Positions 21,639 to 24,466 of a DNA stretch of 47,220 nucleotides are shown here, one piece after another (position 1 is the stretch's first letter; every line of letters begins with the position of its first letter). Made by a program: the position numbers and the translations under genes. The stretch is from Thermoanaerobaculia bacterium (GTDB lineage: Bacteria > Acidobacteriota > Thermoanaerobaculia > Multivoradales > JAHEKO01), in NCBI GenBank assembly GCA_945787635.1, contig CALZIK010000087.1, forward strand, positions 1-47,220, written 5' to 3'. The notes beneath the pieces were generated by a model. That model saw only the letters and a list, made by a program, of their open reading frames with translations. It ran no database searches and was not told where the DNA came from.

Positions 21639-21686
21639 TTCGCTTGGTTCCTGCTTCAGAAGCTGTTCAGCACGGGTTCGCCGCCC

Positions 21687-21773
21687 ATGCCCGGCTCATT
21701 CGATCTTATCTGCACCCTGGGTCGGGCAAGCACGCGAATCGCGTCTCCAAAGCGCTCCTCGAAGAGGGCACGG
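21687..21773 (+). repeat. Degenerate copy of the 5' end of the ArsC-family gene
   Basis: Bases 21687-21717 match 23195-23225 at 28 of 31 positions (start codon and first ten codons of the selenoprotein candidate). The likeness fades beyond this, though a later KALLEEG in another frame recalls KAVALLEASG. The frame stops after 29 codons. It looks like a relic of a second arsC-like gene. The two copies lie about 1.5 kb apart, either side of the DUF5916 relic. Confidence 0.6.
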
Positions 21774-21860
21774 TAAAGGCACCCAAGACGCGCTGTACCG
21801 ACGGGATCGAGCTGCCGCCCTGGATCGACGACCCTCGGAATAGGATGCCCTGCTGGAACG

Positions 21861-22979
21861 TCAAAGGACCCAAGCGTAGCCCAGTTTGAGGAAGAAGGTC
21901 CGATCCGACTGGGTCGGCCGCCCTCGACATCGAGCGTTTGCAGAGTGTGATCTAGCTTGATGTTGACGTGCCGCCCGATCTTGGCCTCGACCGCCGGATT
22001 GACCAGAGTCAGGTCCGCCGGTTGATTGTTGCTGAAGTCGACGGTGTCTCCCTGATCGCTGAACAGAGACAACTCGACTGCACCGCTTGGTTGGAACTCG
22101 CCGTAGAATTGAACGCGGTTCATTCCCTCGTAAAGAACGCCGCCGAAGAACTCCTTGTTGCTCTCCAAAGAGATCTCGGTGAACGACTGCAGGGGACCAC
22201 GGACATTGGCAAAGAAGTCGATCCCCTCTTCCGTGAGCCGGCCGCCGTGGTCCTCTGAACGCTCAGCAAAGAGGCCAATATCGACCTGGTTCCACCAATC
22301 CCCTTCGGCACCCCGAAAACGCCGGATCACGGTGCCGGTGGCGCGCTCGAGATCGACCTGCGACACAAAACCGCTGTCGGCCCGAAACCCGAGACCCAGA
22401 GACCGGTAGCTGGCGAACCAGAGCCAGTCGCGCGCCTCGTGATCGTAGTTGATCCGAAACGCGTCTCCCTCGAAGGAGCCGGCACTCTGATCGAACGCGC
22501 CGGCCACGGCGTCCGGATACCGCGTATTGGAGCGTAGGTACTGAAACTCGATCGTGTCGGTCTCTCCCAGACGGAAGAAGCCGTCGAGCCCCCCCGATCG
22601 ATTGTGATAGTCGTCGCCCTCACGACCGGCAAAGAGGACCCCGAGCGCGGAGTTCTTGCCGATGTCTCGCCGGAAACGCAGCACAGAACCGGTGACGTCC
22701 TGATCCCGCGACCGGCGGCTTGACGTTGTCGCCCGGGGACCACTCGTAGCCGAGCGGGATCGCCAGGGCCGCTCCCCAGGCGGCCTCGTCCAGCACAGCG
22801 TCGACCTTGATCTCAGAGGTGGCGCGGACGATCTTCCACCGATTGGACTCGCGCGCCGGTTCCACGGTCTTCTTCTCATCCGCCGCGGCTTTCGTCAAAC
22901 CACCCTGGGCGAAGGCTGCGCTGGTCGATAGCAGCAAGGCCCAAGTGACCACCATCCTGTAACTGGCGCTCGAACTCAC
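21861..22979 (-). pseudogene. DUF5916 / CBM9-like outer-membrane barrel protein, two internal deletions
   Basis: The N-terminus is normal: GTG at 22979 with an AGGAGG site, signal peptide (VVTWALLLSTSAAFAQ) and the start of a CBM9-like domain (IKVDAVLDEAAWGAAL). At about 22721 the frame shifts from GDNVKPPV straight into the late barrel (QDVTGSVLRFRRDIGKNS), losing several hundred codons that normally lie between. The barrel then reads well to LDHTLQTLDVEGGR near 21920, where a second deletion and shift join it to the true family C-terminus RTFFLKLGYAWVL-stop at 21861. The family makes surface barrels of unknown role in Bacteroidota and Acidobacteriota. Two separate in-gene deletions make this a clear relic. 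Confidence 0.85.
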
Positions 22980-23083
22980 CTGCAACCTCCTGGGTCTCTC
23001 CATTCTACGAAGGACGCTTTGGCGGCCTGCGGCAAGCTTGAGTCTGCGGTGCGATTCCTGATCGGCGTGCGCGCCGCGTCAAC

Positions 23084-23194: not shown

Positions 23195-23548
23195 ATGCCC
23201 GACTCCCTCGATCTTATCTGCACCCGCACGTGAAGCACCTGTCGCAAGGCGGTCGCCTTGCTCGAGGCCAGCGGGATCGAATACAGCTATCGCGATTACC
23301 GCAAGCGGCCGCTCGATGAGGCCGAGATTCGCGACATTCTGTCGATGCTCGGCCTCGGCCCGAGGGACGTGCTGCGGCGTCGCGATCGTGCCTTCCGAGA
23401 GCTCGGGCTCACCGGTGACGAGCCCGATGAGGTTCTCATCGGGCACATGGCGAGGCATCCGACACTGCTCGAACGGCCGATCGGAGTCTCGAGAGGACGC
23501 GCGGCGATCGGTCGCCCCCCCGAGAATCTGCTCTCACTCGTCGACTGA
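23195..23548 (+). CDS. Candidate selenoprotein: ArsC/Spx-family thioredoxin-fold reductase with in-frame TGA
   Basis: 117 codons if the TGA at 23231-23233 is read through. Around it the frame reads ICTRT-U-STCRKAVALLE: the TGA sits at position 13, where ArsC/YffB/Spx proteins have the first cysteine of CxxC, giving UxxC with Cys16 kept. The rest of the family is intact: YRDYRKRPL, RELGL, HPTLLERPIGV and GRPPENLL at the C-terminus. Such proteins are thiol oxidoreductases, of which some reduce arsenate. A hairpin of bacterial SECIS type follows the TGA. The ATG at 23195 is the only sensible start and lacks a clear ribosome site. A one-base Cys-to-stop mutation is the rival explanation, and degraded genes lie nearby. 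The 3' end overlaps the converging AAA+ remnant by 15 bp. Confidence 0.75.
23238..23267 (+). promoter_or_regulatory. Bacterial SECIS-like hairpin
   Basis: Seven perfect pairs (23244-23250 with 23255-23261) enclose the tetraloop GGTC (23251-23254); CCT/AGG (23238-23240, 23265-23267) can add a lower stem. Seventeen nt separate the TGA from the first loop G. Bacterial SECIS elements lie just downstream of UGA, inside the coding region, with a short apical loop carrying G near its start; E. coli fdhF also has GGUC in its loop. Confidence 0.7.
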
Positions 23549-24466
23549 CACGGCGGCCGCTCGCCCGGCCAGCTCGAGCAGGGCTGCCGCATTGCGGCTA
23601 CGCCGGAAGAACGCCAAACCCTCGCCCTCGACCTCGACTTCGACCACGTCACCCGCTGCGATGCCCTCGGAGGCGATCAGCCGCGAGAGCGGATCCACCA
23701 GTTCGCGCTCGATCGCTCGGCGCAACGGCCGCGCTCCAAACCTCAGGTTGGTGCCGCGATCAATGATCCACTGCTTGGCGGCGCCGCTCGGCCGGATCAG
23801 CATCGGCACGCCGGCGTACCTGAGTGCCCGATCGTGCACGTCAGCCAGGAACTTCTCGAAGATGAGCTCGAGCTGCTCGCGCTCGAGCGCCGAGTACACC
23901 AGCACTTCGTCAAATCGGTTCAGAAACTCGAAGGGAAAGCTCGCTCGCGCCGCTTTGAGCGCCAACGCACGGAGGCTGTCCGCTCCCTGCGTTCCCGATG
24001 GCTGGTCACGGCCGAAGCCCACCGGTCGGCGATCGAGAAACTCGCCCATCTCGGCGCTGCCCACGTTCGAGGTCATCAGAATCACCGAGCGGGTGAAGTC
24101 GGTCGTGTCGTTGTTGCCCAGAGTGAGCATCCCGTCCTCCAGAATGCCGAGCAGCGCGTTCCAGAGCGTCGGGTGGGCTTTCTCGATCTCGTCGAAGAGA
24201 ATCACCGAAACGAATTTCGCCGAAGACGACGAGAAGATCCGATCGGCCAAGCCGATCTCGATCGTCTCGCCCGCGGCGCGCGCCTCGATCAGCTTCCGAT
24301 GCGGACGGTCCAGCCTGCCCTGACTCAGCAAGGGATCGATCTGATGACCGACATACCCCGGCGGCGATCCGAGGAGCTTCGAGATCTCATGGCCGTGGGC
24401 ATACTCCTCGCAGTTGACCCGGATCATCGCGCGCTCGGAACCGAAAAGCGCCTGGGCCAGCGTGCC
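23534..24466 (-). pseudogene. 5'-truncated Clp-type AAA+ module (ClpA/B/C second ATPase domain)
   Basis: The visible frame encodes the D2-type ATPase of HSP100/Clp unfoldases: LAQALFGSERAMIRVNCEEY, the pore-loop motif GSPPGYVGH, Walker B VILFDEIEKAH, sensor-1 TSN, arginine-finger FLNRFDE and sensor-2 RFGARPLRRAIERE. Upstream of LAQALFG, where GxxGxGKT should be, the sequence is unrelated (GHQSSG), and the frame continues only to a stop at 24533 with no start codon. The only ATG is at 24427, without a ribosome site. So Walker A and the rest of the N-terminal half are missing. It is probably a decayed remnant rather than a working ATPase. It follows the ribbon-helix-helix gene on the same strand. 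Confidence 0.8.

Follow-up and report, generated by a model that had tools for sequence, protein, structure and literature searches.

Does the in-frame TGA at codon 13 of a small ArsC-family gene in a Thermoanaerobaculia bacterium mark a broken gene, or does it encode selenocysteine (Sec), and what would the resulting protein do? The gene lies within a stretch of 47,220 nucleotides (hereafter, the window), which is one contig (C87) of an assembly that totals 4.36 Mb and is estimated to be 97.7% complete. The original prediction was that of a new candidate selenoprotein, and it gains support from the Sec machinery of the genome, the conservation of the TGA and a SECIS hairpin behind it. Judging from comparative sequence analysis, codon 13 is very probably read as Sec, and the protein is identified mainly as a selenoprotein with an ArsC-type active site (probability of about 0.9). 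The key features are listed below; the clade is the group of close relatives described in the following sections.

23195..23548, + strand: predicted ArsC-family selenoprotein gene (translation with TGA as U; PF03960; TGA in 30/31 clade members)
23231..23233, + strand: UGA codon, predicted Sec13 (aligned with the catalytic Cys12 of plasmid R773 ArsC, 1jzw/1i9d; TGA kept in relatives)
23219..23221, + strand: Cys9 codon TGC (invariant in the clade; aligned with the His of HNPxC in ordinary ArsC, HNPRC)
23240..23242, + strand: Cys16 codon TGT (second residue of the UxxC pair; invariant in the clade; Ser in ordinary ArsC relatives)
23244..23261, + strand: putative SECIS hairpin of the bacterial type, a GGTC apical loop closed by the 7-bp stem GCAAGGC/GCCTTGC (consensus fold, covariation, frozen codons)
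23375..23377, + strand: Arg61, equivalent to Arg60 of R773 ArsC (alignment; invariant in the clade and a broader set)
23474..23476, + strand: Arg94, equivalent to Arg94 of R773 ArsC (alignment; invariant in the clade and a broader set)
23513..23515, + strand: Arg107, equivalent to Arg107 of R773 ArsC (alignment; invariant in the clade and a broader set)

The reading frame and its surroundings

The open reading frame (ORF) 23195-23548 on the plus strand starts with the ATG at 23195 and ends with the TGA at 23546-23548, and a base-by-base check places the internal TGA at codon 13. As originally claimed, a full-length family member is obtained only when the TGA at 23231-23233 is read through: the product consists of 117 residues including Sec13 (MPDSLDLICTRTUSTCRKAVALLE...RPIGVSRGRAAIGRPPENLLSLVD) and matches the Pfam ArsC model PF03960 with 55.7 bits, against a cut-off of 24, when Cys is placed at U. 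No other in-frame start than the ATG at 23195 is found from the preceding stop (23174) to the TGA of codon 13. The alignment of Sec13 with Cys12 of R773 ArsC and the presence of Cys16 at 23240-23242 bear out the proposal that the TGA falls on the catalytic Cys of a UxxC motif with its second Cys intact, and the conservation of the whole 100-plus downstream residues in about 30 relatives agrees with the observation that the family continues for more than 100 codons past the TGA.

If the TGA is taken as a stop, the longest ORF that the standard code allows in this frame is 23258-23548, with 96 amino acids and a TTG start; it begins within the hairpin and does not include the catalytic residue. 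Because this ORF starts at a TTG inside the hairpin and is devoid of the active site, automatic annotation would truncate the ArsC gene, just as it had been anticipated that gene callers would split or truncate it.

The neighborhood was described in the original prediction as consisting of decayed genes, which is only partly true: the description fits two neighbors, a minus-strand gene on the upstream side that appears to be frameshifted and, on the downstream side, a short ORF similar to the C-terminal part of ClpB. The former (21656-23003, minus strand) has no Pfam match and appears to be split over the overlapping frames 22620-23003 and 21656-22879, likely, through a frameshift or an assembly error. 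The latter (23534-24427, minus strand) is convergent with the ArsC gene, overlaps its end by 15 bases and looks truncated, containing only a part of the AAA_2 domain along with the D2-small domain.

Conservation of the TGA codon among relatives

Codon 13, read directly in each clade member after removal of duplicates, is TGA in 30 of the 31 sequences and TGC in the remaining one, which answers the question, raised in the original prediction, of TGA versus TGC or TGT in close relatives. A scan of genome contigs yielded 7 close relatives with 55-65% identity (TGA in 6, TGC in 1); among 149 genomes of the class that were scanned, 20 close members were found, including that in the window, which come from 7 families of a single order and invariably have TGA. 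The scan of the phylum added 7 members (L133, L135, L136, L137, L139, L142 and L145), and a scan around L014 added L164, again all with TGA. The clade spans about ten families of the phylum as well as Myxococcota; the relatives with names include metagenome-assembled genomes (MAGs) of Thermoanaerobaculia or other Acidobacteriota and one Polyangiaceae (Myxococcota) MAG, and the outliers of the clade are Myxococcota and one further group. Most of the genomes surveyed are MAGs.

No other stop breaks the reading frame in the clade members, so the further frame breaks among relatives that were named at the outset as counter-evidence are not found. In the clade alignment, the segment before the TGA (LICxxT) is as conserved as the residues that follow it, which indicates that the codons upstream of the TGA are translated together with the rest.

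The only TGC form in the clade (L013:3028-3030) has a broken hairpin stem and looks like a switch from Sec to Cys; the single TGA that a search of its genome reported is not codon 13. No tRNA-Sec was detected in this genome, which would fit a loss of Sec coupled to the loss of the machinery; we rejected this possibility because selA is present there, the MAG is fragmented and the coverage of the contig is below 1. With 30 of 31 members carrying TGA, Sec is the dominant and probably the ancestral state in the clade, an unusual situation for a family whose members generally have Cys.

A SECIS hairpin downstream of the TGA

The strongest single evidence for the Sec reading was absent from the original prediction, namely, the SECIS hairpin. 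It begins 10 nucleotides (nt) after the UGA, with 17 nt between the UGA and the loop, and the RNAalifold consensus structure of the clade coincides with the 7-bp stem of 23244-23261. The GGUC loop is also present in Escherichia coli fdhF. Pairing is kept in 202 of 203 pair cells (99.5%; 29 distinct sequences) and falls to 30-57% in controls with the two strands shifted against each other by one to three bases. Compensatory, two-sided changes occur at 2 pairs: one sequence has U-A in place of C-G, and two sequences have G-C in place of A-U. In the latter case, a Lys codon has become an Arg codon (AAG to AGG) and, on the other side of the stem, a Leu codon has changed synonymously (TTG to CTG), a combination that selection at the protein level does not explain.

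The codons that span the hairpin (+4 to +9 after the UGA) show same-codon frequencies of 0.83-1.00, compared to 0.27-0.69 expected from codon usage, and most codons outside this span are close to expectation. In particular, Leu at +9 is encoded by TTG in 20 of 22 sequences, and TTG makes up about 10% of the Leu codons in the large genes of the window. Synonymous recoding of single sequences produces a 7-bp stem in about 2% of the cases and the stem together with the GGTC loop in 0.4%; these are per-sequence chances that we did not multiply because the sequences are related.

The constraints described for bacterial SECIS elements are an upper stem of 4-16 bp, an apical loop of 3-9 nt located 16-37 nt from the UGA, and a G at one of the first two loop positions (PMC13188914). 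The hairpin 23244-23261, with its stem of 7 bp, 4-nt loop GGUC starting with G, and distance of 17 nt, agrees with this model at every point that can be checked. A search of the window against Rfam produced no match at the gathering thresholds.

Because some thirty relatives keep the same TGA followed by the same SECIS hairpin, the Sec reading appears almost certain, and sequence data could hardly lend more support than they do to the insertion of Sec by SelB guided by this hairpin. The alternative already entertained in the original prediction, a pseudogene produced by a plain Cys-to-stop mutation in an ArsC gene, to which a sequencing error can be added, draws on the frameshifted gene and the truncated ClpB-like ORF nearby but fails given that both the TGA and the hairpin are conserved. 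The same TGA recurs in 30 of 31 clade members across the families of the phylum and in Myxococcota, coding constraint extends on both sides of it with no other stops, the hairpin covaries and is under synonymous constraint, and the 55-74% protein identity among the relatives excludes copies of one recent insertion; we consider a pseudogene extremely improbable.

The selenocysteine machinery

All four components that the original prediction proposed to look for are present in the genome that harbors the window. There is a tRNA-Sec (73 bits, E 8e-15; identified by ARAGORN as SeC with the anticodon tca), and matches to selA (426 bits), selB (342 bits) and selD (357 bits). The selD gene itself contains an in-frame TGA in the CAGUASK motif (L096:1471-2490; C151:2790-3722 of the same genome), so that SelD is likely a selenoprotein as well. 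The genome also contains a second, TGA-free selD match on contig C195 (L097). A gene for an FmdB-like zinc ribbon appears, by eye, to lie directly upstream of the tRNA-Sec (L001:1497-1596 and upstream) and has Cys; an FmdB-family selenoprotein has been reported from the Global Ocean Sampling (GOS) study (PMC2398784).

Across the class, tRNA-Sec was detected in 129 of 148 genomes and is detectable in 20 of the 21 genomes that carry the gene, the exception being 82% complete; incompleteness may account for its absence both from that genome and from the genome with the Cys form.

Decoding of the UGA as another residue, such as tryptophan, or general readthrough of stop codons has nothing in its favor beyond the in-frame UGA itself and can be considered negligible: the homologs carry Cys rather than Trp at this site, the genome encodes the full Sec machinery and a SECIS hairpin follows the codon, the ArsC gene itself ends at a TGA, and the large genes of the window can be read with the standard code without meeting internal stops.

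Protein family, structure and phylogeny

The best match among the NCBIfam models is TIGR00014 (arsenate reductase, glutaredoxin) with 88.6 bits, which is below the curated cut-off of 106.05, as are the scores of two other clade members (94.8 for L164 and 92.2 for L011). Membership in two other families was considered and rejected on the scores, namely, TIGR01617 (Spx/MgsR; 54.7 bits against a cut-off of 75.05) and NF041106 (16.6 bits against 85).

Sec13, Arg61, Arg94 and Arg107 align, respectively, with Cys12, Arg60, Arg94 and Arg107 of R773 ArsC (1jzw), and none of these four positions varies within the clade or within a broader set of 31 sequences. The HNPxC motif of ordinary ArsC is replaced by CxxT-Sec in all clade members, which thus have Cys9 for the His of HNPxC, together with Cys16 for Ser15, giving UxxC.

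The AlphaFold model of the protein, with Cys at position 13, has a mean pLDDT of 93.1 and, used as a query, finds arsenate reductases as the nearest solved folds (3f0i, Z 18.8, rmsd 1.4; 3rdw, Z 18.4), followed by R773 ArsC (1jzw/1i9d, Z 16.2), Spx (Z 15.0) and YffB (Z 14.3). Compared to structures, the clade profile scores 73.7 bits with ArsC and 65.6 bits with Spx, and the Spx alignment has no equivalents of Arg61 and Arg107.

In a tree of 74 sequences, which was built from a short alignment and in which many inner forks are unresolved, the clade forms a single group (support 100/99) of 29 Sec forms and 1 Cys form, apart from the HNPx(C/U)xxS group and from the Acidobacteriota KPT(C/U)TxCR group. 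The Sec label requires at least six changes across this tree.

A putative selenol-based active site

The protein would most likely act as an arsenate reductase that uses a selenol, or as a related thiol oxidoreductase, a proposal that draws on the conserved residues and on the established knowledge of the ArsC mechanism. SelB with Sec-tRNA(Sec), directed by the hairpin, would read the UGA of codon 13 as Sec. The selenolate of Sec13 would then attack an oxyanion (arsenate is the simplest candidate) bound by Arg61, Arg94 and Arg107, and the selenium-arsenic adduct would be resolved by Cys16 of the UxxC motif or by glutathione/glutaredoxin. Arsenite would be released and exported by Acr3, which is encoded elsewhere in the genome. 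Cys16 is likely the resolving cysteine of the UxxC pair, and Cys9, which takes the place of the usual histidine, might be a third redox residue or tune the pKa.

Arsenate, or a similar oxyanion, seems somewhat better than an even bet as the substrate. This step of the argument is weaker than the Sec step because the gene is located outside an ars operon and lacks conserved neighbors. Across 29 loci there are no conserved neighbors and no ars operon, and nothing is shared apart from the gene and the frame antisense to it. The presence of Acr3 in the genome of the window is in favor of arsenate, but across the class the occurrence of Acr3 is not associated with that of the gene (10 of 21 carriers and 62 of 128 other genomes; Fisher p 1.0), which counts against it; within the order, Acr3 is found in 10 of 21 carriers compared to 12 of 51 others, a difference (p 0.054) that is confounded by kinship. 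The missing HNP part of the active-site motif and the score under the TIGR00014 cut-off also speak against arsenate reduction.

The observations on gene context and on Acr3 are compatible with a role of the selenoprotein other than arsenate reduction, that of a thiol-disulfide oxidoreductase or of a redox switch similar to Spx. A Sec13-Cys16 selenenylsulfide would, in that case, reduce disulfides in proteins or small molecules or sense oxidants. This is a possibility to which we assign less than even odds. It is in line with the UxxC pair at residues 13-16, found where arsenate reductases have CxxS and reminiscent of the CxxC of Spx, with the clade profile matching the Spx structures nearly as well as those of ArsC, and with the similarity to the Spx fold. 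Against it, Arg61, Arg94 and Arg107 are invariant and the first and last of these have no equivalent in the Spx alignment, the TIGR01617 score is below both its own cut-off and the TIGR00014 score, and the structure is nearer ArsC. If it is arsenate that is reduced, selenium supply would be tied to arsenic detoxification in these bacteria, and the protein would represent a well-studied enzyme in a naturally occurring Sec form, suitable for asking what selenium buys.

Comparison with known systems

Selenoproteins of the ArsC family are not new, and the original prediction was right to point to those from marine metagenomes, which lowers the novelty of the present finding. In 2005, 14 sequences of UxxS type from the Sargasso Sea were predicted to be selenoproteins by Cys/Sec pairs and SECIS elements (PMC1088965); in 2006, an ArsC-like selenoprotein was described in Desulfotalea, with a distant homolog in Desulfuromonas (PMC1794560); in 2008, the GOS data yielded ArsC 1 (UxxS, 77 sequences) and ArsC 2 (UxxC, cd03032, 42 sequences) (PMC2398784); and a review of 2026 assigns the UxxS form to TIGR00014 and a UxxC form to NF041106, ArsC_rel_Se_1 (PMC13188914). 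A text search found no paper that names both Thermoanaerobaculia and selenoproteins. Thus, the kind is known, and the clade looks uncatalogued by the NCBIfam models, with the GOS UxxC set compared by description only. The present analysis adds a well-supported clade of Acidobacteriota selenoproteins, whose scored members fall under the NCBIfam cut-offs and which standard gene calling would truncate.

The UxxS selenoproteins belong to the same ArsC family and likewise have their Sec where the catalytic Cys normally lies, but the clade described here has CxxTUxTC, with Cys for Ser at +3 and Cys for His at -4. Another family of the same class encodes UxxS-type Sec ArsC with the motif HNPxUSKSR (L126, L130 and L131; TGA at 1498), which score 143-150 bits with TIGR00014, compared to the 88.6 bits of the window protein, and belong to a different clade of the tree. 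Next to their close Cys relatives L127-L129, they provide a natural comparison of Sec and Cys.

The GOS arsenate reductase 2 (NF041106) is a predicted selenoprotein of the ArsC superfamily that shares the UxxC motif; the low score of the window protein refers to the NCBIfam model under which the review places this family. The genome of the window encodes a second ArsC-related candidate selenoprotein (C169:10658-10948; L132:1447-1806, minus strand) that is a nearer relative of NF041106 than the window protein (70.3 bits, against the cut-off of 85) and has the motif YRPSUQSC with a TGA followed by a strong hairpin.

The KPTUTxCR clade (L155, L156, L158, L161 and their Cys relatives) comes from the same phylum and shares UxxC with a TGA at the same site, but is separate and strongly supported, has Pro before Thr-Sec and lacks Cys9. 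Sec and Cys members are mixed within one family (f37), and the three Sec members that were scored (L155, L156 and L158) are all below the NCBIfam cut-offs.

R773 ArsC (1i9d, 1jzw) shares with the window protein the fold (rmsd 1.6-1.7), the catalytic position and Arg60, Arg94 and Arg107; the window protein differs in having Sec for Cys12 and Cys for Ser15, and in the absence of the HNP motif and of an ars operon. Spx (1z3e) shares the fold and has CxxC in the same place as the UxxC of the window protein, but has residues other than Arg at the first and last arsenate-site arginines. The window protein has the three arsenate-site arginines of ArsC, two of them without a counterpart in the Spx alignment, and a UxxC pair that resembles Spx. 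A further, rather doubtful suggestion is that the CxxTUxTC clade represents a third, uncatalogued subfamily of ArsC-family selenoproteins, in which the arsenate-binding arginines, together with a Sec/Cys pair that resolves itself and a third Cys in the active site, would make up a selenol arsenate reductase that resolves its adduct without glutathione.
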